Of a stretch of DNA of 64,000 nucleotides, positions 5,692-60,470 are shown piece after piece. Source of the DNA: Liolophura sinensis. Its lineage: Eukaryota > Mollusca > Polyplacophora > Chitonida > Chitonidae. The notes beneath the pieces were generated by a model. That model saw nothing but the letters and a program-made list of their open reading frames with translations, did not search any database and was not told where the DNA came from. The DNA lies in contig NC_088306.1 in the NCBI RefSeq assembly GCF_032854445.1, forward strand, positions 15,805,386 to 15,869,385, in the 5' to 3' direction. The translations under genes and the position numbers were made by a program. The first letter of the stretch is position 1, and each line of letters starts with the position of its first letter.

Positions 5692-5905
5692 TACTTATTT
5701 GATTGGTGTCTTACGCCGTACTCAAGAATATTTCAGTGATACAATGTCCGCTAGCATTATGGTGAGAGGAAACCAGGCAGAGCATGAGGAAAACAAGGCA
5801 GAGCATGAGAGGAAACCAGGCAGAGCATGAGAGGAAACCAGGCAGAGCATGAGAGGAAACCAGGCAGAGCATGAGAGGAAACCAGTCACAACTTTAGGGA
5901 ATCCC
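5692..5905 (-). mobile_element. SINE fragment, internally expanded
   Basis: On the minus strand this is the 3' half of the window's common SINE: the tail core (ACGCCGTACTCAAGAATATT on the plus strand near 5711) and then the GAGAGGAAACC block. The GGAAACC..GCAGAGC segment of the SINE has been amplified into a 22-bp minisatellite inside the element, and the tRNA-like head is missing. Confidence 0.8.
5761..5892. repeat. 22-bp minisatellite born inside a SINE
   Basis: About five to six copies of AGAGGAAACCAGGCAGAGCA plus TG. The unit equals the internal GAGGAAACCGGGCAGAGC motif seen once in the other SINE copies, so the array arose by local amplification after insertion. Confidence 0.9.
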
Positions 5906-6505
5906 AGGACCATGCGCACGTTGCTCTACATGAGGAGAGTATATGTAGTATAACAGGATACCTGAAACAAAAATTGGATAACAAAACAATCTTCACCTTT
6001 CTGTAACACAAATTTCAAGGGATAATTTATTTGTAGAAATCATACATTTTTTACATGTACATAAAATACAGTTTGGCATTATTCCTATGTACAAAGTGAA
6101 CCAGCAGTTAACCATAAAATGTGATGTCTGGAACATTAATTGTTCAAGGCCTTTCACTGATATCACAAACTAAAATGTGCCCCTACACGAAATAAAACAT
6201 TTGTATATAATTATGTGATTCTATGCTTATACATGTAAACCATGATAAAAGCATGAAGACACATGTAGAATGTAGTATTTTTGTCGTCGCCAGCTGGCGT
6301 AAAAATTACAAACATGACTGGGGAATATGAAGTCAATAAAATGATAATTAATGTAAAAATACATGAATAAAACTATACCAATTTATACACATAACAGTAT
6401 ATATATGTAAGAAGAAGTCCAGGTTTCCCATAATACTGACCATGATGACCTCTGACATGACCAATGGGAAAATGTATCACAGACTATATATATACTGTGT
6501 ATACC
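5906..6505. other. Non-coding interval
   Basis: A/T-rich sequence without recognisable gene or repeat. Confidence 0.35.
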
Positions 6506-8660: not shown

Positions 8661-8664
8661 AGAC

Positions 8665-10600
8665 AACTGTCATACACTAACATTTAGGTCCATGAACTGA
8701 CAACAACGACACAACTGTCATACATTAACATTTAGGTCCATGAACTGACAACAACGACACAACTGTCATACACTAACATTTAGGTCCATGAACTGACGAC
8801 AACGATACAACTGTCATACACTAACATTTAGGTCCATGAACTGACGACAACGATACAACTGTCATACACTAACATTTAGGTCCATGAACTGATGACAGCG
8901 ACACAACTGTCATACACTAACATTTAGGTCCATGAACTGATGACAACGACACAACTGTCATACACTAACATTTAGGTCCATGAACTGACGACAACGATAC
9001 AACTGTCATACATTAACATTTAGGTCCATGAACTGACGACAGCAACACAACTGTCACACATTAACATTTAGGTCCATGAACTGATGGCAACGACACAACT
9101 GTCATACACTAACATTTAGGTCCATGAACTGATGACAGCGACACAACTGTCACACATTAACATTTAGGTCCATGAACTGACGACAACGATACAACTGTCA
9201 TACACTAACATTTAGATCCATGAACTGATGGCAACGACACAACTGTCATACACTAACATTTAGGTCCATGAACTGACGACAATGACACAACTGTCACACA
9301 TTAACATTTAGGTCCATGAACTGACGACAATGACACAACTGTCACACATTAAAATTTAGGTCCATGAACTGACGACAATGACACAACTGTCAGACACTAA
9401 CATTTAGGTCCATGAACTGCCGACAACGACACAACTGTCACACATTAACATTTAGGTCCATGAACTGACGACAATGACACAACTGTCACACATTAACATT
9501 TAGGTCCATGAACTGACGACAACGATACAACTGCCATACACTAACATTTAGGTCCATGAACTGATGGCAACGACACAACTGTCATACACTAACATTTAGG
9601 TCCATGAACTGACGACAATGACACAACTGTCACACATTAACATTTAGGTCCATGAACTGACGACAACGATACAACTGCCATACACTAACATTTAGGTCCA
9701 TGAACTGATGGCAACGACACAACTGTCATACACTAACATTTAGGTCCATGAACTGACGACAGCGACACAACTGTCACACATTAACATTTAGGTCCATGAA
9801 CTGACGACAATGACACAACTGTCACACATTAACATTTAGGTCCATGAACTGACGACAACGATACAACTGCCATACACTAACATTTAGGTCCATGAACTGA
9901 TGGCAACGACACAACTGTCATACACTAACATTTAGGTCCATGAACTGATGACAGCGACACAACTGTCACACATTAACATTTAGGTCCATGAACTGACGAC
10001 AATGACACAACTGTCACACATTAACATTTAGGTCCATGAACTGACGACAACGATACAACTGCCATACACTAACATTTAGGTCCATGAACTGATGGCAACG
10101 ACACAACTGTCATACACTAACATTTAGGTCCATGAACTGACGACAGCAACACAACTGTCACACATTAACATTTAGGTCCATGAACTGACGACAATGACAC
10201 AACTGTCACACATTAACATTTAGGTCCATGAACTGACGACAACGATACAACTGCCATACACTAACATTTAGGTCCATGAACTGATGGCAACGACACAACT
10301 GTCATACACTAACATTTAGGTCCATGAACTGACGACAGCGACACAACTGTCACACATTAACATTTAGGTCCATGAACTGACGACAATGACACAACTGTCA
10401 CACATTAACATTTAGGTCCATGAACTGACGACGATACAACTGTCATACACTAACATTTAGGTCCATGAACTGACGACAACGATACAACTGTCATACACTA
10501 ACATTTAGATCCATGAACTGATGACAACGACACACCTGTCATACACTAACATTTAGGTCCATGAACTGACGGCAACGACACAACTGTCATTCACTAACAT
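8665..10600. repeat. 48-bp tandem array, about 40 copies, with a 192-bp higher-order period
   Basis: The unit combines ACAACTGTCATACACTAACA, TTTAGGTCCATGAACTGACG and ACAACGAC. Variants alternate in order: a CTGCCATACAC unit, a GATGGCAACG unit, then units with CACACATT and AATGAC or AGCGAC. The CTGCCATACAC marker recurs near 9533, 9677, 9869, 10061 and 10253, i.e. spaced 144 then three times 192 bp (four units). The array starts about 200 bp beyond the ANKMY1 stop codon on that gene's 3' side. Confidence 0.97.
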
Positions 10601-10798: not shown

Positions 10799-10945
10799 TC
10801 ACACAAAGCTGTAGTTATCCATATAAATTTGCTTGGCATCTGGCATGTGAAGAGCTTCAACTGAGGTGATCACATGACCCAAGCTATCCACATACACCTT
10901 TCGACGCTCCACCTTGGCACTTTTACTCCTCCCCTTCCAAGGAAC
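10799..10945 (-). CDS. ANKMY1: ANKMY1 exon 16 (putative last exon)
   Basis: Encodes [40 protein letters not shown], and YMDNYSFV, then TGA at 10801-10799. The acceptor TTCCTGTTGTCTAG is preceded by a pyrimidine tract. Phase 0 matches the exon 15 donor exactly, and the composition looks coding. I cannot confirm homology from memory, so it rests on splice logic. Confidence 0.65.
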   Translation of the reverse strand, partial: VPWKGRSKSAKVERRKVYVDSLGHVITSVEALHMPDAKQIYMDNYSFV

Positions 10946-13900
10946 CTAGACAACAGGAAGAGGGGGAAATACAGTATGTAAATCCACAAGACAGTTGATA
11001 ACATAGACAGCATATCCACAAGGTAGATATTCCAGATCAAAAAAATGGTAAGTAAATCCACAGAACAGACAAAAACAGTCAGTAAATCCACAAAACAGAT
11101 GAGAACAGTCAGTAAATCCACAGAACAGACAAAAACAGTCAGTAAATCCACAAAACAGATAAAACCAAAATCAATAAATCAAAACCTACAGAGCAAAGAA
11201 GTCAAGGGATGGAGATGAGGGGTGGTGTGAATCTGAGGGCAGCTTTCCAGTACATGACAATTTACCCTCATAAATCTGCGGGCAACTGGTAGACAAGGTA
11301 GGAGGAAGGGGTGGATGGAGATCTGAGGACAACTTTTCAGTACATGTGACAATTCACCAAGATAACTGGTGGACACTATCATGACAGTGTCAGCTTGTGA
11401 AGTACTGAGATATGTCTGTCAGATGTTCTACATGTACAGGTATCACAGTGGACATAAACTTATCATCACTCACGGTAATCTTAAAGTCTTTGGGCTTGGT
11501 TTGTTTCGCCGGCACAGTTTTAGGGGTGGGGCTTGCACTGCGCCCCCTCCGAGGCGGACTCGTAGTTTTGCGCGACACCCCTGTGGTAAAGGTGCAGACA
11601 CATAATATACACATCGTGCACAGTGAACACAGCATTAAGACATACACACTCAATACTGGATTTTAATATGATACTGGTTATGATGTAAAACAATAACAAT
11701 TTATTATGTTAAATATAGGTGCAGTCATCAAAAAAAGAGAAAATGTTCACTTTAAAACCAAGAAATGCATGTAGTCTACACATAAACAACTGTGCAATTT
11801 ACAATGCCACTGTTACATCAGAAATAAAATAACAATCCCCCAATATACAGAACATGTGTATTTCACAGTACACAGTCAAGCACAAAGAATCACATCTTGG
11901 TTGATATTCGATGATAAATAGGGCTCTGATCTTCATTGAATTACAAGAGTTGTTTCCCCTGTTCAACCTACAGTTGGTAACCCCTAATACTTCTAGATGA
12001 GGCAATAACAACTGAGAACAATAATTATTAGAGAGAACAACACATTTGTTACACATCTAGAATTCATATATATTATTTGGACATTATTGAGTAAAAATGA
12101 CCGCAACAACTTTCTGACAAGCTAATTAAGCTAATGTGTGTTAGAGCGACAATTGGCCCCAACCTAAAAACTTAAAATTAAAAAAAATTAGCTTCAGCTG
12201 GTAAAATGAAAGTGTTTCTTTTTAATGGATGCAGTGCCTATTTTACATACCTGTAATACAGACACACTCCTGTTTGTGCCTGGCAGTCCAGGCCTTGAGT
12301 TTACAGGCTTTACTACAGTAGAACACCTCTTTACATCGTGTACATGGAGTCAGCCTGACACCCACAGAGCGGCCACACTCGTAACAATACTTAAACAGGG
12401 GCTTCCTGTCAAGACAGAAGATAAAACAGCATTTAATCAAGGGCTTTCTGTCAAGACAGAGAATAAAACAGCATTGATCAAGGGCTTCCTGTCAAGATAG
12501 AGGATAAAACAGCATTTGATCAAGGGCTTCCTGTCAAGACAGAGGATAAAACAGCATTGATCAAAGGCTTCCTGTCAAGACAGAGGATAAAACAGCATTT
12601 GATCAAGGGCTTCCTGTCAAGACAGAGGATAAAACAGCATTGATCAAAGGCTTCCTGTCAAGACAGAGGATAAAACAGCATTTGATCAAGGGCTTCCTGT
12701 CAAGACAGAGGATAAAACAGCATTGATCAAGGGCTTCCTGTCAAGACAGAGGATAAAACAGCATTTGATTAAGGGCTTCCAGTGAAGACAGAGGATAAAA
12801 CAGCATTTGATCAAGGGCTTCCTGTTAAGACAGAGGATAAAACAGCATTGATCAAGGGCTTCCTGTCAAGACAGAGGATAAAACAGCATTTGATCAAGGG
12901 CTTCTTCTCAAGACAGAGGATAAAACAGCATTGATCAAGGGCTTCCTGTCAAGACAGAGGATAAAACAGCGCTTGATTAAGGGCTTCCAGTCAAGACAGA
13001 GGATAAAACAGCATTTGATCAAGGGCTTCCTGTTAAGACAGAGGATAAAACAGCATTTGATCAAGGGCTTCCTGTCAAAGGATAAGCAATACTTAATCAA
13101 GGATATCCAGTCAAGACAGAGGATAAAACAGAACTTAATCAAGGGACTCCTGTCCAGACGAGAGAAGAAAACGGTACTTAATCAAGGTCTTCCTGTCAGA
13201 GTATAAAACAGCACTCAGTCAACATGATCAAAGATTCCCTGTCAAGAAAGAGCTAGGATAAAACAGTACTTCATGAAGGGCTTCCTGTCCACACAGAAAG
13301 GAAAACAGTAATTAATCACAGATTTCCTGTCCATACAGAGGAGAAAACAGAATGTAATCAAGGACATCTTGTCCACACAAAGGAGAAAACAGAATTTAAT
13401 CCAGCATGTCAAGGGTTCCTGTCAAGACAGAAGAGAAAAAAGTACTTAAGAGCTTCGTGTTAGATAGAGAGAACACTACTTATTTAAAGGGATTCGTGTC
13501 AGATAGAGAAAACAGTACACAATCAAGGCCTTTCTGTCAGATAAAGAAAACAGTACATGATCAAGTGCTTTCTGTCAAGACAGAGGAGAAAGCAGTGTTT
13601 ACTCTTTTCCTTTAAAATCTGGCAATCATTTACAACTAGGAAAAAAGGCTGAATCTAATTTGTTGAATAATTTAATTAGGCAGCTATGGAGAACTAGCAA
13701 TGGACATTTACTATTGCACAAATTTTCCAATACATGTAAAGACAAATACGAAAACCATACCGCATCAAGCATCCAAGTCAAGTTTAACTTAAGCTTCAGG
13801 CTTAAGAAAGTTAGTTCACACCTGGAAGACATTTTGATTGCTCCTACTGTACAAAGACTCACGTGTATGGCCATTGCCCTTATGGCTCTTAAAGCTATGT

Positions 13901-16900
13901 TAGATGTTGTGATTATAGCTTTACACACCTTTCAGCAAATGTTACTTGTGTGGTGAAAAATAAAAGCGTGTGCTTTTATATATAACCTTCACATCCAATG
14001 TTTGTTAAAACATTATTATAAAGGACAGTCGTGTAACGTAATGTCAAGGAAAAAAAAACTTTTTTTGGTTGTCTTTTGGTAACAACAAAAAAGAATGTTT
14101 TTGCCACCTTAAAACAACATATTAGCAACTGTTTCATTAAAACATGCAATTTTACCCGCACCCCCAATAAGATTCCTGCAGACGTATCAAAGCTCATCCA
14201 ATATCATTCAATTCATGCATAGAAGTATTTATATGTGACACACATTTACCTGTGTTAACGCATTGCAGATCATTCAATGTTATTTGCATACAAACATTTG
14301 TCACACATTTAAAGTATTAATGCACTGCAAGAAAGAAGAAAAAGACCAAAACAAAAGACACAACAGCCACTCTGTGATGCAATATCATAAGGAAAGTTGA
14401 CCAAACTGTCAAATCACTGCACAAAGCCGGAGCCAACCAATTCCCGCCCACCTGCTGAGCTGTGAGCTGAGATTACGCCTTACTGGCGCTGAGTAATAAG
14501 GTCGGGATGGGATATCTGCCACCACAGTGTCTTCTAGAAATCTTAACAGTAACAAAAAAGGAAATGTATAACTCTGCTGATTTACACAACAACTGTACAA
14601 TACTGGTGGATTTGGGGGAAATTAAAAAAAATACATTCGGAACGTTTCATATGGCAATAAAACACATATATGTTCATATAAAATACACACATGCATGCAT
14701 ACTGGTATAAAGTTGTCTACAAAGTCTGTTTATCCAAACGACTGATTTGCAAGTGACTAGCGCTTTCACAAGCAGTATCTCACTGTTACGAACCCCATCT
14801 TCAAACATTCTATTTAAGTTCTTTTATTTCTTCCCGAGTCATTGTCTGCCCTACATTTTCCCATCTGTTTACATTTATAGCCTGCACTGTAATTCAGTCC
14901 AATGTTCTCGAGGCCTCGGTGTTTGTGAGTTTAGTGGTATTGTACACAGAGTATACATTCTGGAAATATGTATCGGTGTTGTAAACATGTTTACGATCAA
15001 ACCATCCAGAATTTTCCCTTACATTAGCCTATAAATATGAGTGACAAAGTTGTGAAGCTCACAGTCATTCATTCAAGTCCACTTGTGAGCATTTATCTAC
15101 TTAACTCCATTTGAGAGCAGTCATATTTACTGTCATTCAATGTGACGGATTTTGCTTCGTTTAGATTCGACATTCATCATTTATTCTCCAATTTCTGTTC
15201 ATTTTCTGTACTTTGTGAGCATGTGTTTCACCACTTGCTATTTTTGGAGATGTTATTTTGGGGCTTGTATCGTTCATTGACTCTTTGTGCCATGAGGTAT
15301 ATTTCAACCCAGTTTCTCTGAAAGTGAATGTGTGCATAGTTAACAGGAAATATACATCGACAGCTCGACATCATGGATGCTACTGTCAACTTGTCCGCCC
15401 TGAGAAGTTACACATTTACGGGCAGTTGGGGAATAAACCACTTATCGGACTGTCATCCGTAGCATCTTAACTGTGGATTCTATATTTACATGGACTGACT
15501 CGCCTTTGGAAGCCAGAACATTCCATCTGGATTTGGACACTGTAACATACTATATATATATATATACAAATATATTTGTAATTATTTGTGTTGTTCTGTC
15601 TATTATTGTCAATTCTGTTAATATATATGTATCAAACTTATTCATGCGTCTTTGTTTGATCTTGTGTAAGGCCTATTGCTGATCTAAGAGTAAAACTGAC
15701 CGGTTGTCTTTTATCTTCACTCTCCGATAGTGGTACCCTGGTTAGTGGTTCATATTGTTTTGGGGTTAATACATACTTCCGAGCCTCTCACTACCCCACT
15801 GAGTCTATGATAAAATAACGCAGTTTCAGATGATGCCATGATCTAATGTCTTGAAAAAATAGTCACATCAACCTTAACTGCATGTGCCTCATGTATTACA
15901 TTCAGAATTTTTCATATCTAATACTTCAACCTGCAAACGTTGGTTTGCTTGCAGCTTGAAATCCCTGAAGTTTAGGACATTCATGTAAATAGGTGTGGGC
16001 TCGTCTCTCAACTTCAACTGCCCAGGCAGATGGCACTGCCCAGGCAGATGGCACTGCCCAGGCAGATGGCACTGCCCAGACAGATGGCACTGCCCAGGCA
16101 GATGGCACTGCCCATGCAGATGGCACTGCCCAGGCAGATGGCACTGCCCAGACAGATGGCACTGCCCAGGCTCTGCCTCTCATTAGACAAGGTCGTAATT
16201 TATAATGAAGTACTCACAAACATAAACTTGAGGCTGTCAAAGACAGAATTTGAAATCTATTTCTCTCAATTCAACCTATCAGCAGTAATTCACAAAATGA
16301 GGGTGGGTGGGGTGTTTGGGTAGGTGTATAATACTGACCTTTCTTGTATCACAGGTTTAATCTTATCCTGCCTCTTGTTACACTTGAAGGTCACCCTGCC
16401 ATCCCCATGACCTGACCGTCCACTCAGAGTTGGACTCTGGGCTGCAACAACAAGCAAACAGCGAGAATTTATTCATCTGATTGTTGCTTAATGCCATTTT
16501 TCACAAAAGTTTCACTTGCAACAAATGATGATGGCAAACATACTGTACGTCTTCAACCTTTTCAAGTGCTATAGCACTTTCTTTAGAGGACGTTATGCTT
16601 ACAATTATTATGAAAAAGATGCTAAAAACGCTTTGTTTGTGTCATCAAAGATGCAAGCATCATAAAACTGAGCAAATTATTTCTCTCAGAGTGTTTCAAA
16701 ATATTGGTTACAGAGGTAGTTGAGAAAGTTAGGGAAGAATTATGGAATGCAGAATTAGAAGGCAAAAGCTTTGCAGTAGGTAACAACAGTGTGATCACCC
16801 TCAACTGTATGAATAGGAGTTCTAACAAAGGGACAATGCACTATTACTAGACACTATTACAAGGTACATGTACAAGAAAAACATGCATTTATGTCTTATT

Positions 16901-19900
16901 TGGGAACTGCAATTAAATGATCGGATTCGGATCATCACCAAAACGTGTGCTATTGTGCACAAAATTTCATTCAAATCTGTGCATAACTTTTAAAAATAAT
17001 GTTGCCCCTCTCTCTCTCTCTCTTTGTAGATCTATGGCTTCAACTTTTTTTTACTCAATTGGGGTTTTAGGCCATCCTCAAGAATATTTCATTTCATATA
17101 CAACGGCAACCATAATATTAGTTGAAGGAAACCAGGCTCAAACTCATGACCACACACATGTACCGCAGTTTTGTCGTCAGCAGTGTTTTCTCTCTGTCTC
17201 TCTCAGAGTGGTCAAACACAAGCACAAACTGTGACTAATTTCTGTCGCAAGCACTATCTTCTTCGTGTCGTCACAACCTCAGTATGAACAAACACAAGCA
17301 CAAACTGTGACTTTGTCACCCACACTATCTTCTTCCTGTCGTCACAACCTCAGGGTGAACAAACACCAGCCCAAACTGTGACTTTGTCACCCACACTATC
17401 TTCTTCCTGTCGTCACAGCCTCAGTATGAACAAACACCAGCCCAAACTATGACTTTGTCACCCACACTATCTTCTTCCTGTCGTCTCGACCTCAGTATGA
17501 ACAAACACCAGCCCAATCTGTGACTTTGTCACCCACACTATCTTCTTCCTGTCGTCACAACCTCAGTATGAACAAACACAAGCACAAACTGTGACTTTGT
17601 CACCCACACTATCTTCTTCCTGTCGTCACAACCTCAGTATGAACAAACACCAGCCCAATCTGTGACTTTGTCACCCACACTATCTTCTTCCTGTCGTCAC
17701 AACCTCAGGGTGAACAAACACAAGCACAAACTGTGACTTTGTCACCCACACTATCTTCTTCCTGTCGTCACAACCTCAGTATGAACAAACACCAGCCCAA
17801 TCTGTGACTTTGTCACCCACACTATCTTCTTCGTGTCGTCACAACCTCAGGGTGAACAAACACAAGCACAAACTGTGACTTTGTCACCCACACTATCTTC
17901 TTCCTGTCGTCACAACCTCAGGGTCAACAAACACAAGCACAAACTGTGACTTTGTCACCCACACTATCTTCTTCCTGTCATCACAACCTCAGTATGAACA
18001 AACACCAGCCCAAACTGTGACTTACTTTTGCCATCAGCACTGTCTTCTCTCTGTCGTCTTTCTCTCTCAAGATCCATGGCTTTCTTCCTCAGTATGGCCC
18101 CAAGGTGCCCCAGCACTTTTTTCCTGCTGTTGAACCTGTCTCTCTCGGCGTAAGTAAGGGCGTGATACGGCATGTGAGCTATCACACGATCCTGTGAACA
18201 CAACACACAAACATAAACACAGTGGTACAGCATGTGGGCTATAACACGATTCTGTGAACACCAGACACAAACATAAACAGAGTGGTACAATGTGTGAGCT
18301 ATAACACGATCCTGTGAACACCAGACACAAACATAAACAGAGTGGTACAATGTGTGAGCTATAACACGATCCTGTGAACACCAGACACAAACATAAACAG
18401 AGTGGTACAATGTGTGAGCTATAACACGATCCTGTGAACACCAGACACAAACATAAACAGAGTGGTACAATGTGTGAGCTATAACACGATCCTGTGAACA
18501 CCAGACACAAACATAAACAGAGTGGTACAATGTGTGAGCTATTACACGATCCTGTGAACACCAGACACAACCATAAACACAGTGGTACAGCATGTAGGCT
18601 ATAACACGATTCTGTGAACACCAGACACAACCATGTCCTGTGAACACCAGACACAACCATAAACACAGTGGTACAATGTGTGAGCTATCACACGATCCTG
18701 TGAACACAAGACACACATATAAACAGAGTGGTACATCGTGTGAGCTATAACACGATCCTCTGGAACACAAACATAAACACAGTGGTACATTGTGTGAGCT
18801 ATAACATGATCCTCTGGAACACAAACATAAACACAGTGGTACAGCATGTGGGCTATAACAGGATCCTTTGGGACACCAGACACAAATATAAACAGAGTGG
18901 TACAGCATGTGGGCTATAACACAATCCTCTGGGTCACCACACACAAATATAAGCATGGTGGTATGGCTCGAACCAGACACAAACACTAACAGAGTGGTAC
19001 TATCCTAATACACACATGTACATGTAATGTGCCGCAAATGTTACAAACCTAACTATAAGCATGTCTCACCTGATAATCCTACCACATGCATGTAATGTGC
19101 CAAAAACATTGCAAATCTGACCTTCACCTGCTGAATGCATGTCTATCCTGATAATCCAAATAAATACACATAACATGCATTGCAAACCTGACCTTAACCT
19201 TCCTGCGGCATGTACGCCTCACCTGATTGAACACGTAAAATGCGTAATCCACGGCAGTTCCCTGTAACCTTTTGGGTCCAACTGGTATCGGATTCAAGAT
19301 GTTAGCACCAGCCTTTACTAACTTATCAATCTGAAGACAAAGAAATTTACTTCATGAATTCAAAGAGGAATACACAGCTGTTGAGGACATCAATTCCGGG
19401 CACCAATTCTTTACCCTCTGCATAAATTATACTGGTAATTAAAAGTAACAATAACTACGGAAAAAGGGAGAAAAACTGTGAAAAACATGAAAAAGAATGA
19501 ATGATCTAAACCTGAGATTGCAAGGTATCACATACAATGGGGCTAGTACTACATTAAAGTCAGCATAGAGATCAATATATGGATTTGATCTTCTGCTCAT
19601 GGCCGAGGACAAGAGGCAGTCTGCATACTGCGAAATGTTTTTCAGTGATTTCATGAAAACCACAACTTGAACAGGAATAATTCTTTAAAATTCATAATCC
19701 TGAGGTCAAGCAGGTCTCAGAAACGTTTTTGTTCGAGCAGTTTTTACAGCTTGCTTCCTTTGCCATTATTCTCACTTGCCAGCTCAAGCCCAATTTACCA
19801 GCCTACCACACCCATGTGTGCCAATTTGCAAAAAATCTTTCTGGTAGTTTTGGAGAAGATTCTTAAATGGTTATCACATAAATCCAATATGGCTGCCAGG

Positions 19901-22900
19901 TCATTTGACACAGGGCAACTCATTTTGATATGTACCACTTCAGACCATAGGCAAGCATCATGTAAAGTTTCAGTAGATTTGGTGTAGTGGTTTTCTCTGC
20001 AGCTTATAATTCATGGAACTACATGTATGTACATGTAAATATAGATTCACGCGACCAGGCCAGTAATGAAAACTACTGAAAGTTCATACCTGCTGTAATT
20101 TCAGGAATAATGACCATATAGATTCACGTGACTATTCAGATAAATTTCACTATAACAATACTTTGGGAATTATTACAACGCTATCAAAGGAATATTACTT
20201 TTTTTTAATTATTTACAACCTAAGCATGCTTATGCATGAACGTTCATGAAGTTCACAGATTAGACTCTTTATTTGAACATTTCTGTTCATCAGTGAACAA
20301 GCCCTGGCTATCGTATTGCATAGGTACAGATAGCTATACTTACCAGAGCTAGCTGCTGTGTGACAGTTCGTCTGTGTTCGTATTCAGTGGATGAAGCAAC
20401 ACAGAGAGCACTGCCGACTCCGTGAGTCAGCTGTAAACTTGGGTTGGCACCGTGGAACAATAACTCGTCAATTGCCTACAGTTAGGACAGATGGCAAATA
20501 TACTGATAATGGTTGTGTTTTGGAATGACACATGTTCAGAAACAAACTTCACCTGAACATATCTGATAGAAAATGTTCACAAATATTGGCAATAGATATA
20601 AAACAATGAATTCAGAAAGCATGAGACAATAAATGTGTATAGTTATAAAACAGAACAAGAATATGTGTACAACTTACTCTCTAATAAGTACTAAGAGCTC
20701 CTAGTTATATAGCTATAAAATTTGCAAATACGTACCAGGTCATTTCCACTGGTGATAGCCAGAGCAAGGGGAGAGAAGCCCTTACACAAGAGATCCGACT
20801 TGGCACCATACTCTAGCAACAGTCTGACCACTCTGCAGGCATTCTGTAAACATAAATAAAACAAAATATCACATTTCCTGTTCCAAAAAGAGCCTACCAG
20901 ATGCATGGCCCACCCAAGGGGAGATAACCCAACTGTGACAGTTATTCCCCCTGAACAGGAAAACAAAGGTTTCATGTTTACATTCCCCTATTGGGATAAT
21001 GGATGAATGAAAGCTTGGATTATAATGGGATAATGGTGACACAATGCATGACACAAATGGTATAAATTAAAATGTCTATGACATGGTAAATATAAATCTG
21101 GATAATAATTTTCACAGGTGTTAAAGACTGTAACTAACACAGGTTTCTGCAGACCCCACTCAAATAGTCTAAGAGTTATTTACTCTCCCAAATAAAAGTG
21201 TCCATAAAACCATAAACAACTCCATAAATTCATGTTTATTTTATACATGCTGATTATGGTGTGAATGCTGACCTTGTTATTATCATCTCTTGAACACGCA
21301 ATGTGAAGCGGAGTTCTCCCCCCTAGGAGAGCCTGCTGTTCTTCCTCTATCACATCTTTGGACCACTCTTCTGCCTATTGTGAGGTGGAAAAATAACATA
21401 CAAAATACATTTACAAGTACTCGGCACTTGGTCATGTACTACAAAATGTTTCAGATATAATCAATTTAGGTAAAAGATAAATGTACATACACATGTATTA
21501 AAATCTCTCAAGTTGTAAAGTCAAAGTCTGACAAATAAATTTTATTTTACGGTCAAATAATAACTGGCCAATAATTTTTTTTTTATATTGTACAAACAGA
21601 AATAGCTATTACATGAATAATGAGTGTTGAGATTGGCATCATATGTCGAAAGTTCAGGGAAAAAAAATAACATCTAACTATTGGAAATATAGAGTTGTCC
21701 ATATTATTTAGTGGTACACAGGCATATATATCACGAAGGTTCTATATGATATATGTCAGTGTTGTTATCTACTGCTCACACATTATGGTCGACAGTTGTC
21801 CACACTATTTTGCGGCACGCAAACAAACATACCAGGAAGGTACTATAAGGTAGGTGTTGTCATCTACTGCTCACACATTAGGGTCAACAGTTGTCCTTAC
21901 TACATGTATTTAGTGGTACACAGATATACATACCAGGAAGGTATTAAGGTAGGTATTGTCATCTATTGCCCGCACATTAGGGTCAACAGTTGTCCTTACT
22001 ACGTGTATTTAGTGGTATACAGATATACATACCAGGAAGGTATAAAGGTAGGTGTTGTCATCTACTGCTCACACATTAGGGTCAACAGTTGTCCTTACTA
22101 TTTAGTGGTACACATATATAGATACAAGGAAGGTATAAAGGTAGGTGTTGTCATCTACTGCTCACACATTAGGGTCAACAGTTGTCCATACTATTTAGTG
22201 GTACACATATATAGATACAAGGAAGGTATAAAGGTAGGTGTTGTCATCTACTGCTCACACATTAGGGTCAACAGTTGTCCATACTATTTAGTGGTACACA
22301 TATATAGATACAAGGAAGGTATAAAGGTAGGTGTTGTCATCTACTGCTCACACATTAGGGTCAACAGTTGTCCATACTATTTAGTGGTACACATATATAG
22401 ATACAAGGAAGGTATAAAGGTAGGTGTTGTCATCTACTGCTCACACATTAGGGTCAACAGTTGTCCATACTATTTAGTGGTACACAAATATACATACCAG
22501 GAAGGTACTATAAGGTAGGTGTTGTCATCTACTGCTCACACATTAGGGTCAACAGTTGTCCATACTATTTAGTGGTACACAAATATACATACCAGGAAGG
22601 TACTATAAGGTAGGTGTTGTCATCTATTGCCCGCACATTAGGGTCAACAGTTGTCTTTACTACATGTATTTAGTGGTACACAGATATACATGCCATGAAG
22701 GTATTAAGGTAGGTATTGTCATCTATTGCCTGCACATTAGGGTCAACAGTTGTCCTTACTACATGTATTTAGTGGTACACAGATATACATACCAGGAAGG
22801 TATTAAGGTAGGTATTGTCATCTATTGCCCGCACATTAGGGTCAACAGTTGTCCTTACTACATGTATTTAGTGGTACACAGATATACATACCAGGAAGGT

Positions 22901-24074
22901 ATTAAGGTAGGTATTGTCATCTATTGCCCGCACATTAGGGTCTGCCTGAGCCTCCAGCAGTAGCTCTGTAATCTGAACTCCTTCTATCCCCGGGATAGCC
23001 ACAGCAATGTGCAGGGGGGACAGGCCTCCTTTCTGTCAGGGGCACAAAGAAACAAAGCATATAAGAGATGCTGAGTGTATACTGTGAATTTTCTACAATT
23101 TTTTTCACCCTTTGTTGCCTTTACTATCAAAGCTTGGTCAGTTTGTGACGATACAAAGAGGGCAGTAATATGTTTAACACTATCAAAGAAACTAAACAAT
23201 AGACAATCATTTAGGCAGTCGTGTAGACAATCACTTAGAACAAACGTTTGTTCCCCACCAGTTTGTTTTTCAGCAATATGGTGGGCATATTTTTATGTCA
23301 CATGTGAGAAAGTTTGTCACTAGCTGCCAAAGCTTGGTGATGTACCCTAAAAACATTGGTTTTCTCCACCTATAAAAATGTTTAGCCATGGAAGTATCTC
23401 AGTGTCAGTGAGAGGCCCTGTTCGGACAAAAATTGGAAATGAGACAGCCTGATATCAAATTCTGGCTAAATCTATGCTGACAGTCATTGTAAAACTAAGT
23501 GAAAAATCCTTAAGTATTAAAAACTAATAGGCTCAGCCATCGTAAAAGTAAAAAATTCTTGAGTTTGGTGTTAAAACAAAGATAAAATTAAAACCCATGA
23601 GAAGATGAATTAGAATTATAACACTTCAGAGCAATTCTCCTGCTTCCTGTCTGTACAGTTCTTAATGGCTACTGGTGCTCCACACTTTGTCAAGAGGATT
23701 TATCAGATTTACACACTTTATTGACAGTTTTGTATGGTAACAAGTTATAGTTCACCAATCACCTTCTCAGCCTTTCTATTTAATAGCAACTAATCACTTA
23801 TGTATATGGGTAACCTTATTTACTGGATACTTTCATTTATCTATTTACTTGACTGGTGTTTTACGCCATACTCAAGAATACTTCACTTATACGACAGCAG
23901 CCAAAATTATGGTGGGAGGAAACCTACGACCATCCTCAAGTTGCTGCAGACATTACCACGTTCGGCCAGAGGGACGCTTTTAAATCTGTACTTCTAACAT
24001 AATCATTTTTACCTGCTTACAAGATGTCCTCTGTCCAGGATGAAAAATGTAACAGCTGTTTTTCTTTATACTGA

Positions 24075-24112
<38 letters not shown>

Positions 24113-27100
24113 GCTGATATTAACAGACATGATTGTGGTGAACCAAGAAAATAGCTGAAATTTACTATCATAGCCCAAAAAGGCCGGGGTCCAGGGGTAC
24201 GCGCATCAAAATCTTTATCTGATCGATCCACGATACTCCGAGACGTTGCCACCATTTTTGACCGGACTGGCTCTGCTTCTGCCTTCGAATAATGGTATCT
24301 TGTTCCCGATTGGTTGAAACAGTTCGGCTTAATAAAACACACGATCTGACTGGACAATAGACTCCATTCACATAACATAATAACCTCCGGCAATGCCAGA
24401 TTTCGGTAGCCATGCATCGGCAAATTGACAGAATCTTCGACTTTATTTTGAGGAAATAAATCGGAACTTTACAAAATGTTACTACACAGAAAAAAAAAAA
24501 ACGGAAAACAGGTAAATTAATCGAAACTGAACAAAGAAAAAGCGGAATTCCGCTACAAAGCGGAAAAAAACCATGTCTGTATTAATTAATAATCAGTTCT
24601 CACCTGTGGCGTCAGTTTGGCTGAGGTCCCTGCCCCCTTCTCTAACAACGTCCTTACCACCTCTACGTCAGCAGCCTTTATAGCAGAGAACAGGACAGGC
24701 ATTGGTACAGAGGCCACACTTGGGTCAGCACCACGTCGTAACAGAAGGTCCAATGTCTTCTTCATCAGTTCTCGTCTTAAAGGAAAACAGCCACATACAT
24801 GTAGGGGCATATCCTAGTTAGCTACAGTTTGTTATTTATGGTTAATGGACCGTGGTTAATGCTGTGCTTAGTCATAGTGTATCAAACAGGAACTGGAAAA
24901 GTTTGCGGACCCTGGTTTGGTCTTATACATGTAAATGTAACTTACGAGTGATTCTCATAGTTTTCCGGGCAACAGCTGACAGCTGCTCTGTATTTTAATA
25001 TAAAGTAAGCAAGAGCCATTAGAATATGGCGAATTCCCCTTCCTGCTCAATGGGCTGATTACCTAATGACATCATCACTTGCATCTATGTACATGTATCA
25101 TGGGCTGAAAATAGGGTCAGACCTATGTACAAGGCAGTGGAAAGTGTGGTTCATATGCACTAATTAGCTCACCCACCCAGAATATATGCCTTCAGTAAAT
25201 ATGAAGGCATGATGAAGTATGTTAAAAACAAATCTAAAAAAGCTCAGCACACATGATTTACCTGTGTAAACCAGACAGCAAAGATCAAGAAGTAGAAACC
25301 ATGAAATGGAAATGCTACATAAAAGCACTGAGATACCAGTATACATGTACAACTCAATCAAGTATTTTTTATCTATGAGTACCCACACTATGTTAAAAGT
25401 GTAACAACTGGATGCAGTAAGTTTTAGTTTTGTCATGGTCATAAAGCATACCACACATTAGATATCCCAGATTTCTTTTTGTTTAACTGTCAAGTTGGTC
25501 TACTGGTTGAGAAAATCAACAAGGACAGTTACAATGGAGCCCTTGTTAGTCCAGACTTACTCAGATATCTGTATGGCCAAGAAACGAGCTGTCCCCTCTG
25601 CTGCACTGTTCGCATCACGTGACCGCCGACCGCTCACCACCCGCTCATTTTGGCTCAAGTCTGTTGCGCATCTCTCCAGGATAGACTTCGGCACTTCTAT
25701 TGGATAATTTCGAACAATGTTACCTGATGCAAAATCCTCAGGGGACACCAAGGCACTAGAACTTGCCGTATATTCTTCTTCACTCTCTAAGGCTGAATCA
25801 CCATCTTCATCCTTCCGAATTGGGTGGAGCTTATTACTGTCAGCCGCTGTCACACTCTCTTTGATATTTGATTCACAGGATATTTCACTAGTGTCTTTTC
25901 CTGCTTGCTTAATTTCCGATGGCAGTTCACCTCTTAACGCTGAAGCTGGCAAGCCACTGTCCATGCTGATTTTGCTATCACATGTTGATTTGACCGCAAC
26001 AGGAGTATCTGCCTCCCTCAATTTAGCTAACTCCGCCTCCATGCCTGTGCTGGAGCAGGCCTTACTAGCATCTGCCTGTTCCTCTACAGTGTGCTCATCA
26101 ATGCAGATTTCCTTAGCACTGTTTTCACCTTTTTTTTCATCAGGTTTCCATGAGTAAGTTTCTGCCACATTAAACAGGAAGGACTCTACAGGGTAGAAAT
26201 ACACACAGAGGGCAGATAAGGCAGAGCAACCCTCATCATTCAGCCTGTTCACATCAGCCCCGTAGTCCAGCAAGGAGTTTACAATGGGTATGTGCACATT
26301 TACCTGAAACGTAGAAGAGTTCATGGAAAGTTTGGGTAATGAATGATGTCACTTAATAACTACTGGTGTTCTGAGGACATAATTTATTAAATGACTACAG
26401 ATATGCATGCATATACATCTAGAAACATAATTATGTACAAGTATGTAACGCTGAGTAGACTCATGTACGTGTTTACGCTGAGTAGACTTACCACTGCACC
26501 AATCAGTGGTACATGTCTATGTCATGTATATGTGTGTGTGCTGAGAAGACTTACCACTGCACCAATCAGTGGTGTGTGTCCATGTCATGTACATGTGTGT
26601 GTGCTGAGTAGACTTACCACTGCACCTATCAGTGGTACATGTCTATGTCATGTATATGTGTGTGTGCTGAGAAGACTTACCACTGCACCAATCAGTGGTG
26701 TGTGTCCATGTCATGTACATGTAAGTGTGCTGAGAAGACTTACCACTGCACCAATCAGCGGTGTGTGTCCATGTCATGTACATGTGTGTGTGCTGAGAAG
26801 ACTTACCACTGCACCAATCAGCGGTGTGTGTCCATGTCATGTACATGTGTGTGTGCTGAGAAGACTTACCACTGCACCAATCAGTGGTGTGTGTCCATGT
26901 CATGTACATGTGTGTGTGTTGAGAAGACTTACCACTGCACCAATCAGCGGTGTGTGTCCATGCTTATCACAAACATTCACATGGACATTCTCCTTATCCA
27001 GCAAATCCAGGACGGCTTTGTGGTTTCCTGACATAGAAGCCATCAACAGTCTCTCTGATGCTATTTCCAGGGGACCTTTTCCACGATGTTTACTGCGGTC

Positions 27101-30100
27101 ACCCGCCAGAATCCTGCCCACATCAAAGGACACAGACGCTTCTCTGAACTGGTGATTAAGAATATGCCTTTGCAAATCAATCATTGATGGACTCTTGTTC
27201 CAAACCACATGTTTCTCAGACTGAGTTTTCTGTGCATTTGATTCTCTGCCTTTGAAGAACTCTTTATCAAAGAGATCTCTGTTCACAGCAAAGCTTCGGG
27301 GATCCAAAGTGTCATTATAGAAATGTAGCATTTTCGCAGAGATGTCCGCTTCTCCGTCCTCTCCCAACCCGTTGTTCTGGGAGGCAGGTAATGACACCTC
27401 CTGGTCTTCCAGATACGCCACATGCTCGTCAAGGTTACAGCCAAACTCTGGATGGTGCGTGATGGAAAAGGCCCCAGTTACTGCTGTGCACATCTTGATT
27501 AACTTCTCCCCACGCCATATCCCAACATCTTGGTGTCCATCAGGGTAGGTCAGTACCCCTGGGCCCAGACGAGAATCGTCTTTGTACAAACCCTGGGGAA
27601 GACCAGATGAAAGAAGAATGCTTCAAGTAACAGTGAACATAACTGATCAGTGAGTCTGATTTGCTCAGGACATCTGAGAGTTCATGATATGTGTTCTTAC
27701 AGTACCTGTAAGCTGGACTCTATTGCTAATAACTGGACATTATAAATACTACATACAGGCACATTAAGAGAACAGTAGACATGTAATACAACACTGAAGA
27801 GGAAAATTATTGCAGGTTTTCATGCTACTGTCAAATTTAAAAACACTGTTGACCTTTTTGTATTTTGAAAGCAGTGCAGTGTTGGCAGGTGTGCATGGGC
27901 GACCTATACATTACATATCTGTGTTATACCTGAAACTTCAGACTGAGCTTGTTACTTAAATACCTTTACTTCAGGAGAACTCCATGTTAAAAATGAGCTT
28001 ACAACAACACTAAGCAATATTTTAAGAACTATGCCTGTCCAAAGCGTCTGCACTCACAAACAAGGTGTAAAGCAAAAGAAAACACTCAAAGGAAGTATAT
28101 CAGATGAAAGACAATTAGACACTGTCCAAAAAAATGTTTTGATTTATTTTGCATGATGAAATCTGGATGGCAGTCTTTGTGTGTTAGGTGGCAAAAACCT
28201 GATGTGATGTCACTGGTCCCAGAAAAGGCCACAGTAGCATCCAAACTTCCGAATGCATTTTACTACCTTGAAAAATTCTAAAAAAAAAATTAACTGAACT
28301 ATCTTTAAGGACCCTGTTTAATGGTCTTTCATCTGACACACACATCTTGTTAGTGTTTCTTCTGCCTTTAAACATATTTTGCTTGTCTTTGAAGACTGCA
28401 CCTAACCAAAATGTTTCTGACTCTTCCACCTTTGCCTGATGATACACAAGTTAAACAGTGTGGCAAATAAGACACACAAATGAGGCTGATGACATCATTC
28501 CAACTACATTACTGAACTTCACATTGTATATGCCTAATTCACCATCACATGAGCGCAGCAGGCAATATGTATGGCTAAATGTATTACTTAACATTATGTT
28601 TTTGAAAATACTTTTCAGCTATACCCATTAAATAAGGTTGTACATCTCTTTGAACAACAATGTCATTTCCGTCAACCAAGACATGCTTCACACTCTATGA
28701 ACAATTTCCTCTTAATTGTCTCTCCACAAGCTGAAGCAACTGCTATTACGCCTGCTGAGCTAGACGGGTTGAAGCACTGGGAGCCCAACTTTCTGCTATC
28801 AAAAGATTCCACCTCACCTCGAACATGTTTCCACTTGCAAACCTGAAGCTCCCATAACCCTCTCTCCTGTCCATGTGGAATGTACCAGTGTATGAGGAGT
28901 TGTTAGGCCAGGTGTATGTTCCGCTGCCATGCCGTCTGTCATGGAAGAACGTCCCCTGGTACGACTGAAACACAAGCAATGCACGTATACATGTACTCAG
29001 TATGGAGATAAGTTAAAGAGCTACTTTAGTGTTGAGACAAGTATGTCCTAAAGGCAAGGTTAAACGATAAGGATTGGGACGGTCCGAACTGCTTTCTTAA
29101 ACTGTAGAATAAATGCATTGTATTAAAGCCGTTGTTGTTAGTTCGTGAGGATAATATGGAAACAAAACTTTTCTGCCGTTCCTGACGTCATGCAAGAACA
29201 CTTGATTGTCAGCCATCACTGACGCATAGCTACAAATCACGTCATACTTTCAAATGTGCATGACGTCATTCCAGCATAACTACCTTGCTCGACGTCATAT
29301 CAGTCTGATTCATTGTCAAATATGAAATATTATTATTTCACATCAGGAAATTTTTTATGAAAATTGCTAAGGATTTTCATTTTCAGGACCCGTGACTTAT
29401 TGAAGTTAGATAGCGTTATTCAGCGTAAATTTTTTGAATCTTGCCGTTAGCTATATTCCATAGGGTATCCTTCATATCAGTTTAATATTTCAACCTGGCC
29501 TCTCTCAGAACTGAAGGAGCACTTTAAGCCATGGTGAATCTGGACTTCACAAGGATTAATTGGTGTTTTGAGTCATTGTTCAAATGATCTTGATTCACTT
29601 CTGTGATAGTTGGCAAGATTATGGGTGAAGGACACCACACTTGGCAGGATTATCATTTATAGGTGGAGGAAACCAGAATTGGCAGACTTATGGGTGGAAG
29701 AAACCATCTTCAGAATTTTATCCAAAAATCTAATGTATTGCTATCTGATTGCGCAACCTGAGCTGTGATATAGCCTTTACCCGTTCACTAGATGAAGTGG
29801 CATATGATAAGACAGAACTACAACATAAGACATCATTTTGCGATCGTTTACAACAATTCAGTTATGTGTAGACAAAGGGCCATTTCACTAAATGTTGGGG
29901 CAGGTCTGCATCATTCATGGACCACCACAAACAGTTGATTTACAAGCCATGTAATATTCAACAACGGTATCACAAATTATGTCAGACAGTAGCATACCGT
30001 TTTAGTCTAAACCACATTCATCTGCACAAATAAATTTTTTGTGATTCATTTTAGCATTTCGTCAGCAGTTCCTAAATGACAAATATCAGAGTCGATACAA

Positions 30101-48199: not shown

Positions 48200-49371
48200 A
48201 TTAAATAAGATTTCCACACCAGTGGACGAATTATGAGGTAGCATCACAGCTAGACAGGGAGACATCTCATTACAGATGTTCAGTGTTGTTAGCGTGTATC
48301 GGGGAGGATGCCATGCAAGTTTACGACGGTCTTCCATTTTTGAGCCAGGAAGATCAAAGTGACCTTGACACTGTTCTTAAGAAATTCGAGGATTTTTTCG
48401 TGCGACGCGTACATTGCCACTCTGAGAAAACTGGCAAAAACCTGCAATTTTGGCCAGATGGAAGATAGAATGCTATGTAATCGTATAGTTGTTGTTGTGA
48501 GAGAAGACCCGATTCGTGAAAAGCTTCTAGAACATAGAAAAACTCACACTAGCTCGACGCGTAGAAATCTGCAGAGCTTACGACGCGACACCGGAGGCGT
48601 CGCTGACCTTAGCCGACTGAATAGCAATCAACCTAAAGTACAGCGACGATCCAGGAAGCAAAATTACAAGCTAGGGAAGAAAACTTGTCAACGATGTGGA
48701 AGGTAACCACATAGTTATGACAAATGCTCCCGCAGTTAAAGACGCCCAGTGTGATAAATGGTGCAAATGGGGACATTTCGCAGCCCGGTGCCCTACACCA
48801 CCTTCAGTCAGTGCAGTTCAGGATGACGAGGATTTAGCATTCCTGGGACCTGTAAGTGTCGGGACCACTACTCCGTGGAATGTTGAACTGAAAGTACATG
48901 TAGGTGACTGTGTCGATCAAGTTATTTTGAGAGTCGACACTGGTGCATACGTGACAGTTATTCCGTCAAACCTTTCTCCCCGTCTGAAGGTGAAGCTTAA
49001 TAATTCGCAGAAGAAGTTGTTTGGTTTTGGTGGAAAGGAGCTTTCCGAACTAGGACATTTCACTGCAGTGCTCCAAACGTCAAAGCATTCACCTACGCAG
49101 ACTTTGTATGTAGTTCAAGGTCTTATAGAGCCTTTGTTCGGCCGGCCACCAATTACCGAGCTTGAATTACTTCTGCGTGTGAATGCGGTCGACAGTGAAA
49201 ACTCAGGTCACAAATATAGAGACCGTTACCCAAAGTTATTTTCTGGGTTTAGGAAGCTGAAAGAGACTTATAAGATTTGGCTTGCGAAAGACGTGGTTCC
49301 TTTTGCCATAACGTCACCGACACGTCTTGCATTACCATTGATGACAAAGGTCAAGGAGGCGTTACAGCTCA
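48200..49371 (+). mobile_element. Ty3/gypsy retrotransposon remnant: broken gag, protease, start of RT
   Basis: Gag-like sequence (48200-48470, then another frame to 48706) with a capsid-like segment and a zinc-knuckle region whose first Cys pair (CQRCG) and second knuckle (GHFAARC) lie in different frames; in the second knuckle one Cys is displaced. From 48696 a 257-codon frame holds an aspartic protease (VDTGAYVTVIP) and the N-terminal approach to reverse transcriptase (YPKLFSGFRKLKETYKIWLA). The frame ends at 49470 after running into a SINE. There are frame changes near 48400 and 48700, no RT core, RNase H or integrase, and no LTRs found. It is inactive. Confidence 0.8.
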
Positions 49372-49542
49372 TTCTGGCCTCCTCTTCTGTCGTGGGTGGG
49401 AAGTTTTGCAGCAACCCACGGATGGTTGCAGGTTACCCCCGGGCTCTGCCCGGTTTCATCCCACCATAAAGCCGGCCACCATCATATAAGTGAAATGTTC
49501 TTGAGTACAGCGTAAAAATCCAATCAAATAAATATACAAAGC
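49372..49542 (+). mobile_element. SINE 3' half abutting the gypsy remnant
   Basis: Forward fragment: GGGCTCTGCCCGGTTTCATC, CCACCATAAAGCCGGCCACC, CATATAAGTGAAATGTTCTT and tail CAATCAAATAAATA. The end of the retroelement frame reads into it. Confidence 0.85.
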
Positions 49543-55762: not shown

Positions 55763-56732
55763 TGTATCACGGTAAATTCGGTGAGAGACTTAATATTGGT
55801 CATATGAAATATATAGCCCTAACAAAGCATGGTTAGTACGTGGATGTACGTGTATAGAACAGCTCTTGAAGGATCAAAATTCGACATGCGAGAGCTTACG
55901 GATATCGCTGCCCATTTAGACTTGAGTGTGGATACTCTGCCAACGATAGGCATTACCAAGCAGTGTTAGGCCGCCGTTAAAGCTAGAAATATCTACAACG
56001 AAAACCAGTTCTGCAATAAAGACTACTATGAAAAGAATACATGGTTGAAAAATAGAATTTGGGAAAGAAACTTTTATCGATATATTACAGCGTGTATAAT
56101 ACACAGGTGAAAAAATATTTGCCCCTCTACTTGATTTTAGGACCATATGAAAAAACATCACAAATTTAGGAAAGCAATTCTCCAAGTTTACTGCAGCCAA
56201 TGGTAATCAAAACCAGATGCCTTACATCACCGAACAGAATTTGGTAAAACTATACTAGTATTTGAAGATGGCTGTATAAAACTGCTGACGACTGAATGTT
56301 GTTTGGCGTTTTCCATCCATCATGTAAAAATGAACAATTTATCTCAATAAAATACAAATGACTTTTGAGATATGAAGCCAAAGAAAAGCAAAGAACAGTG
56401 AGTTTGAAAGACGAAAGTTCATTTACGTACACAAGGCGTTTCGATAATAATATCGTTTATTAAGATTTTGCCAACAAGTTCCATGATGAAATTTATTTGC
56501 ATATTCATGGCAGACTAAACCGGGCAAAGTAATGTAGGACTTGCCAAATTCCACTTTCTGTGCAAACTATAAAACATAACTTTACATTGAAAAGTAAAGT
56601 CATTATTTGTTCATCATTCTACTCTAAACTTAATGGTCACCAACTCTTAAAAGAAAACAGTTATCAAACATCATGTTTACCAACACAGGTTCAATATGAA
56701 GAAGTTTGATTTGACTTATTCACTGAATACAC
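55763..56732. other. Non-coding interval
   Basis: Open frames on the minus strand (55916-56200 and 56250-56432) have no recognisable content. Confidence 0.35.
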
Positions 56733-57178
56733 GTTGCAAATTACCCCATGGGAAACGTTGCAACTTACTCCATGGGAAACGCTGCAACTTACCCCATGGG
56801 AAACGCTGCAACTTACCCCATGGGAAACGTTGCGACTTACTCCATGGGAAACGCTGCAACTTACCCCATAGGGAACGTTGCAACTTACCCCATGGGAAAC
56901 GCTGCAACTTACCCCATGGGGAACGTTGCAACTTACTCCATGGGAAACGCTGCAACTTAGCCAATAGGGAACGTTGCAACTTACCCCATGGGAAACGCTG
57001 CAACTTAGCCCATGGGGAACGTTGCAACTTACTCCATGGGAAACGCTGCAACTTAGCCCATGGGGAACGTTGCAACTTACTCCATGGGAAACGCTGCAAC
57101 TTACTCCATGGGAAAGGCTGCAACTTACTCCATGGGAAACGCTGGAACTTAACCCATGGGGAACGTTGTAACTTACCT
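56733..57178. repeat. 24-bp tandem array, about 18 copies
   Basis: The unit is CCATGGGAAACGCTGCAACT plus TACC. Two variants, GGGAAACGCTG and GGGGAACGTTG, tend to alternate, suggesting a 48-bp dimer. Almost every unit contains CCATGG. Open frames across it on both strands are artefacts of the period of 24. Confidence 0.95.
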
Positions 57179-60271: not shown

Positions 60272-60470
60272 CTTGGAATCTTCTTCACCTGTTAATACAA
60301 TGACAAAATACAATTAAGCTAAAGCTAAAACATAAGTAAGGTTCACCATACAGACAACTGAAAACTATGCGTAAGAATACTTTCATTTAGTTTTTCAGAT
60401 TTTTGAGGAGAGTGTTGAAAGGCATTCAAATATTTGAATACTGTGGTGGGCTTTAAGAGCCCTATTGACG
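60272..60470 (-). other. STEAP 5' flank with a probable 5' UTR splice acceptor
   Basis: On the minus strand TTGTATTAACAG|GTGAAGAAG lies 17 bases before the ATG and looks like a splice acceptor, implying a non-coding first exon further upstream. A perfect 16-base palindrome ATTCAAATATTTGAAT is at 60424-60439. Confidence 0.4.

Follow-up and report, generated by a model that had tools for sequence, protein, structure and literature searches.

Minisatellites spanning exon-intron junctions in an ANKMY1-like gene and in other conserved genes of the chiton Liolophura sinensis

Five junctions of an ANKMY1-like gene of the chiton Liolophura sinensis adjoin tandem arrays whose repeat units hold the edge of the exon together with the neighbouring intron. 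Arrays of this kind are common in the chiton genes sampled here and occur there more often than random placement would give. The gene was studied in a window of 64,000 nucleotides, the whole stretch of DNA analysed (contig C12, 15805386-15869385), and the searches extended to the genome of 609,464,459 bases in 632 contigs, for which the published annotation has 28,010 protein-coding genes (PMC11068029); the species name was corrected from L. japonica to L. sinensis (PMC12441733). The arrays are probably 'mirage' minisatellites like those described in amphioxus, in which duplications across a junction would be tolerated while the exon-proximal site is still spliced, and would then expand within the intron.

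Five arrays at the junctions of one gene

The ANKMY1-like gene (window 10799-32791, minus strand) was modelled with 16 coding exons, which are separated by GT-AG introns, join in frame and remain open over 1111 amino acids; introns 4, 7, 11, 12 and 13 are among those that divide its coding parts. A Pfam scan of the protein found MORN repeats, ankyrin repeats and a zf-MYND finger, and the gene is called ANKMY1-like after the order of these domains. The limits of each array, and the exon bases inside it, were determined by alignment to the consensus reported by Tandem Repeats Finder (TRF).

All five arrays lie on the minus strand, as does the gene itself. At the donor of exon 4 (26933-27592) there are 8 copies of a 63-bp unit (26461-26962), with 30 exon bases inside the array, and the donor of exon 7 (22892-23032) adjoins 13.4 copies of a 93-99-bp unit (21693-22942), with 51 exon bases inside. 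Exon 12 (18026-18191) carries an array at either end: 13.2 copies of a 60-bp unit at its acceptor (18173-18963, 19 exon bases) and 12.1 copies of a 71-bp unit at its donor (17202-18058, 33 exon bases). At the acceptor of exon 14 (12251-12405), which encodes the MYND finger, there are 28.9 copies of a 41/42-bp unit (12383-13595); 23 exon bases lie inside this array, or 7 by the TRF limits, and its regularity drops with distance from the exon. Both types of boundary are therefore affected, with three donors and two acceptors, and across the five arrays the units are 86-95% identical to their own consensus.

When all 32 exon ends of the gene were scanned, comparing 30 bases around each end with the neighbouring 3 kb, extra copies were found at these five junctions only. 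The scan picked up a single extra copy for the exon 12 donor, 786 bases off. Ten units of that array keep the exon edge and the intron but have the GTAA of the donor deleted, and GTAAGT occurs just once in the stretch, as the real donor. Exon and intron sequence is thus present inside all five arrays, whereas the splice site has been copied in four. The earlier note on this DNA had reported arrays at these same junctions (exons 4, 7 and 14, and both sides of exon 12); TRF, alignment and the exon-end scan all agree with it, and its exon numbering is that of the new 16-exon model. Its further statements, that the units of every array hold the splice site and that the introns are flooded with copies of it, are correct for four of the arrays and not for the one at the exon 12 donor.

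TRF found another two arrays in this gene, which lie within introns and away from junctions and serve as a contrast: an 18-bp array inside intron 13 (16017-16171) and a 30-bp array inside intron 15 (11051-11164), about 100 bp from exon 16. Of the intronic arrays with a period of at least 12, five out of seven span a junction against 0.64 expected (P = 7e-5), a value that is biased in that the gene was selected for its five arrays; a test free of this bias is provided by the survey of other genes. A separate 48-bp array of 40 copies (window 8663-10600) ends about 200 bp beyond the stop codon of ANKMY1 and may lie in the 3' untranslated region or just past it.

Junction arrays in other genes and in the genome

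Three Pfam families, amounting to 241 kb, were taken without regard to repeats: myosin heads (16 stretches from 10 genes, 139 kb, using 10 of about 20 clusters), CCT chaperonins (7 stretches, 61 kb, using 7 of the 9 multi-exon clusters and omitting intronless copies) and dynein AAA_6 (11 stretches, 40.5 kb, using 11 of about 18 clusters). TRF rows were retained if they had a period of at least 12, at least 2.5 copies and at least 60 bases. This left 47 arrays in the myosin genes (46 rows, one merged row being split in two), 13 in the CCT genes and 5 in the dynein genes. Between 12 and 23% of the surveyed gene sequence consists of arrays, and those listed reach up to 3.4 kb. Each array was then assigned by eye, in comparison with the adjacent exon. 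Arrays that span a junction with exon sequence in their unit number 9 of 47 in myosin, 4 of 13 in CCT and 3 of 5 in dynein, or 16 of 65 in total; 47 lie off junctions, and the remaining two, both in CCT genes, are doubtful and were not counted (L039 1989, a donor, and L040 1, an acceptor). The junctions concerned are mostly donors, 14 against 2 acceptors (P = 0.004), or 15 against 3 if the doubtful arrays are added.

A uniform scan of the listed exons recovered 13 of the 16 junction arrays; it missed those of L007, L008 and L039 2922, where the exon is unlisted or the copies have decayed, and in L001 the junction call fell on a copy. Three sets of calls from the scan were dropped: rows from L012 in which array repeats had been entered as exons (4 acceptors and 5 donors), an acceptor at 4281 in L003 that was taken to belong to a repeat rather than an exon, and an acceptor call inside the doubtful L040 array that was judged wrong. 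Other arrays near exons were checked by eye and left uncounted, namely L010 576 and 1339, L015 5019 and 9558, L016 5259, L040 358, L042 7394, L043 6898, and L051 995 and 4405. In L012 (2867-3705) there is also a 74-bp array whose unit resembles, by eye, a dispersed repeat (window 5763-5885 is similar), so that this minisatellite may have arisen from a piece of a transposon.

The expectation was obtained by placing one unit per array at random in array-free sequence, in 3000 shuffles and with 168 exons; 3 of the CCT exons and at most 5 of the myosin exons, plus a few end positions, were entered by hand. A first null, in which whole arrays were placed in the present introns, had been dropped because arrays lengthen introns and so inflate the chance of exon contact. 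Against the 16 junction-spanning arrays observed, 4.8 were expected; none of the 3000 shuffles reached 16, the simulated maximum being 12. The excess extends into the 50 intron bases beside the exon, where 12 arrays were found and 5.7 expected (P = 0.011, with the two doubtful arrays included). The zones beyond this held 6 against 9.0 and 13 against 13.7, and at more than 400 bases from an exon there were 18 arrays against 31.7. The expectation was also calculated analytically, the counts of known exons (85 and 42) and the upper values being chosen by the analyst; it came to 5.6 (P = 4e-5), and to 8.1 (P = 0.003) if unseen exons are allowed for generously.

It could be argued that the genome is simply rich in minisatellites, that some of these land on junctions and that a lucky gene happened to be noticed. 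The large share of arrays in the surveyed sequence is in keeping with this, as are the choice of ANKMY1 on account of its five arrays and the near-background result of the motif test described below. Nevertheless, since no shuffle attains the observed number and even the generous exon count predicts only half of it, chance is an improbable explanation. This is as the earlier note had maintained, and its proposal that arrays overlap splice junctions more often than random also holds in three families, and so more widely than in ANKMY1. Its suggestion that duplication is tolerated only at splice junctions does not hold, as 47 of the 65 surveyed arrays span none.

An artefact of assembly or annotation is more improbable still, to the point of being hardly credible. 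Tandem copy numbers can indeed be misassembled, and the exon models were built from homology and frame; however, the assembly is of HiFi reads with a mean length of 8,347 bp (PMC11068029), which exceeds the arrays listed here. Furthermore, the divergence of the ANKMY1 units from their consensus means that they are no clones of one read, and independent genes share the same design.

A cruder test was applied to the whole genome, in which three copies of AGGTAAGT separated by gaps of 25-55 bases were counted and compared with the reversed motif. There were 661 matches against 547 for the reversed control and, among the matches listed, 16 clusters against 15 in the first 67 Mb of contig C1. The test would probably be underpowered if most arrays lie outside genes. 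From C1, 20 of the 22 donor-motif clusters among the matches listed were fetched, and the upstream open frames of 10 of these 20 loci were compared with Pfam. Two loci matched, one to Branch (PF02485) and one to GH31 (PF01055), and the eight other peptides had no Pfam match. The GH31 exon enters the first array unit, and its peptide, cut by the analyst at the first donor, is matched to its last residue (E 6e-13). The Branch-family exon is open up to the array, the match stopping 13 residues short of the donor. A third locus is DeoC-like by NCBIfam at E 0.002, far below the cut-off, and lacks a Pfam match; a fourth has no NCBIfam match. Junction arrays are therefore about two- to three-fold above expectation in the sampled genes, yet hardly visible in the crude genome-wide motif count.

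Copied splice sites and the origin of the arrays

Most of the copied splice sites are intact. The GT is kept in 130 of 161 donor copies (17 arrays), and 86 of the 161 equal or exceed the real donor on a simple consensus score; the AG is kept in 82 of 91 acceptor copies (4 arrays). In the ANKMY1-like gene, GT is present in all 7 decoys of the exon 4 donor array and in 10 of 12 at exon 7. AG is present in all 12 copies found for the exon 12 acceptor, one of which, at -2955, lies outside the array and is probably a chance match, and in 20 of 25 at exon 14. Ahead of one myosin exon, which encodes FERNQSIIVSGESGAGKT close to its start, lie 50 copies of the acceptor; 47 of these have AG, and the 31/32-bp register of the copies is such that most would cause a frameshift if used.

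Two single loci are worth describing here. In the myosin gene stretch L003 (1646-3006), TRF counts some 43 copies of an acceptor unit of 32 bp ahead of a conserved motor exon; the majority of these units are identical to the real acceptor over 26 bases, and so provide a natural test of acceptor choice. In a dynein gene (L051, about 5785-5910) a single additional copy of an acceptor, similar over around 50 bases, lies upstream of the real one at a distance of 102 bp; it is possible that this represents an early, or the first, stage of a junction array.

As the conserved genes must make protein, and many decoys would shift the frame or hit a stop, the exon-proximal copy should dominate; judged by reading frame and homology, normal splicing should use the copy adjoining the exon. 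Alternatively, the copied sites could be functional cassettes, spliced alternatively to vary the protein or tune expression. Consistent with this, most decoy sites are intact, and the array at the exon 12 acceptor can be read through in the frame of the exon, its seven nearest decoys being in that frame and stop-free. On the other hand, use of a decoy donor of exon 4 or exon 7 would add a stop codon to ANKMY1, the copies of the exon 12 donor are dead, and multiples of three are not clearly favoured among the unit lengths (of 17 donor arrays, 6 or 7 have such a period). We regard a function of this sort as very improbable, and the arrays need not have any function.

The reading we prefer, of tolerated mirages, would proceed in three steps. 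Firstly, a short tandem duplication, arising by slippage or repair, would happen to cross an exon-intron junction, so that exon edge, splice site and intron are copied together. Secondly, splicing would stay with the exon-touching copy, since recognition of the site works through exon definition and, in the case of donors, this copy is also the earliest to be transcribed; the duplication would then be nearly neutral and would only lengthen the intron, as frame and homology suggest. Thirdly, the similarity of the units suggests that the array would expand and homogenise into the intron by slippage or unequal exchange, the exon-touching copy meanwhile being held by purifying selection. Since that copy has to be retained and is not free to change, arrays of this type may outlive purely intronic ones; some of the excess seen at the edges of exons could be due to this longer survival. 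The bias of 14 donors to 2 acceptors may reflect a lower tolerance of extra acceptors, which are transcribed ahead of the real one. In support of this reading, arrays built in the same way occur in the myosin, CCT and dynein genes, which are conserved and unrelated.

Several points weigh against it. Neutral tolerance alone predicts no excess at junctions, so that either survival bias or directed birth must be added to it; the use of the exon-proximal site is deduced from frame and homology; and the assignment of survey arrays to junctions was made by eye. Further, the seven in-frame, stop-free copies nearest the exon 12 acceptor make a role in the protein possible there, and the motif test, with little genome-wide excess of donor-bearing arrays, counts against a strong effect.

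The other source of the excess would be that arrays are born at junctions, exon edges, mostly donors, being hot spots of tandem duplication through, for instance, polymerase pausing, R-loops or splicing-coupled damage at splice sites. The gradient found in the survey, from an excess at junctions and in the next 50 bases to a deficit beyond 400 bp, is what this would produce, as is the preponderance of donors. A similar gradient is, however, expected if exon-anchored arrays survive longer, or, hypothetically, if long intron interiors are recent transposon insertions, and the counts of AGGTAAGT barely exceed those of the control, both genome-wide and in C1. Directed birth is therefore considered unlikely, though it is the most serious of the alternatives, and the data do not separate it from longer survival. 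The proposal in the earlier note that duplication initiates at junctions is left undecided, given an excess that includes the adjoining 50 bases and a motif count that barely exceeds its control. There is a wider form of this idea, which is a little easier to entertain but still doubtful: exon edges in this chiton, donors above all, would be true birth hot spots of minisatellites through a process tied to transcription or splicing, arisen independently or kept in lancelets and molluscs, that lengthens introns genome-wide with dozens of intact decoys.

Other features of the window and comparison with known systems

Elsewhere in the window, an open frame at 48675-49466 is probably a fragment of a retroelement; it contains a zinc-knuckle-like and an aspartic-protease-like stretch. 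A single open frame of 505 amino acids on the minus strand (58799-60313) resembles a STEAP-type metalloreductase. A 24-bp array with a 96-bp higher-order period (56731-57177) is open in several frames, and its unit holds GGTAAGT on the minus strand.

The chiton arrays have the unit lengths, copy numbers and homogenisation of ordinary intronic minisatellites, but differ from them in that their units contain a coding exon edge and mostly a splice site, and in that one end is fixed on the exon. They also invite comparison with the model of intron gain by tandem duplication attributed to Rogers, for which there are reportedly cases in Drosophila. In both, the duplicated stretch holds a splice or proto-splice site; that model makes a new intron, whereas in the chiton sequence, which is all that was considered, existing introns grow and no new intron is seen. 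The arrays are nonetheless raw material for intron gain as well as for intron growth. They also offer natural experiments on splice-site choice in conserved genes, with an exon lying behind some 50 near-identical acceptors and exons before a dozen identical donors, and they are a warning for gene predictors, since such introns hold many perfect-looking sites.

In human, minisatellites are found at exon-intron boundaries within segmental duplications (PMC2812944). These internal tandem repeats are likewise minisatellite-sized and overlap the boundary; with support from transcripts, they alter young paralogs and can give rise to new introns, whereas the chiton arrays sit within the introns of conserved genes and seem to do no more than make these introns longer. 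Among the matches listed from titles and abstracts of the open literature there was no report of junction-spanning arrays in molluscs or chitons, and the accessible parts of papers on earthworm metallothionein (PMC12783039) and gastropod hemocyanin (PMC7931591) do not report such arrays.

The closest likeness is to the 'mirage' minisatellites of amphioxus, described in Adh3, the globins Gb6 and Gb9, TnC and PGBD5 (PMC3087553; PMC3902484, which adds PGBD5 and cites TnC). The pattern, which the earlier note had believed to be without a name, thus has one, although the mechanism that generates mirages is called unclear (PMC3087553). Like the chiton arrays, mirages are tandem repeats across the exon-intron boundary, at donors and acceptors, with AG or GT in many units; units in both range from 10 to about 160 bp, and those at the edge escape the homogenisation of the interior. 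The amphioxus cases are backed by RNA, while the chiton arrays are known here from the genome alone. Mirages come from cephalochordates and from single genes; the present work, in a mollusc, adds their frequency, a test against random placement and the donor bias. As far as the literature search shows, the arrays extend a known type of structure to a new phylum, and the frequency in chiton genes of what had been described gene by gene in lancelets points to a process that extends beyond one lineage.

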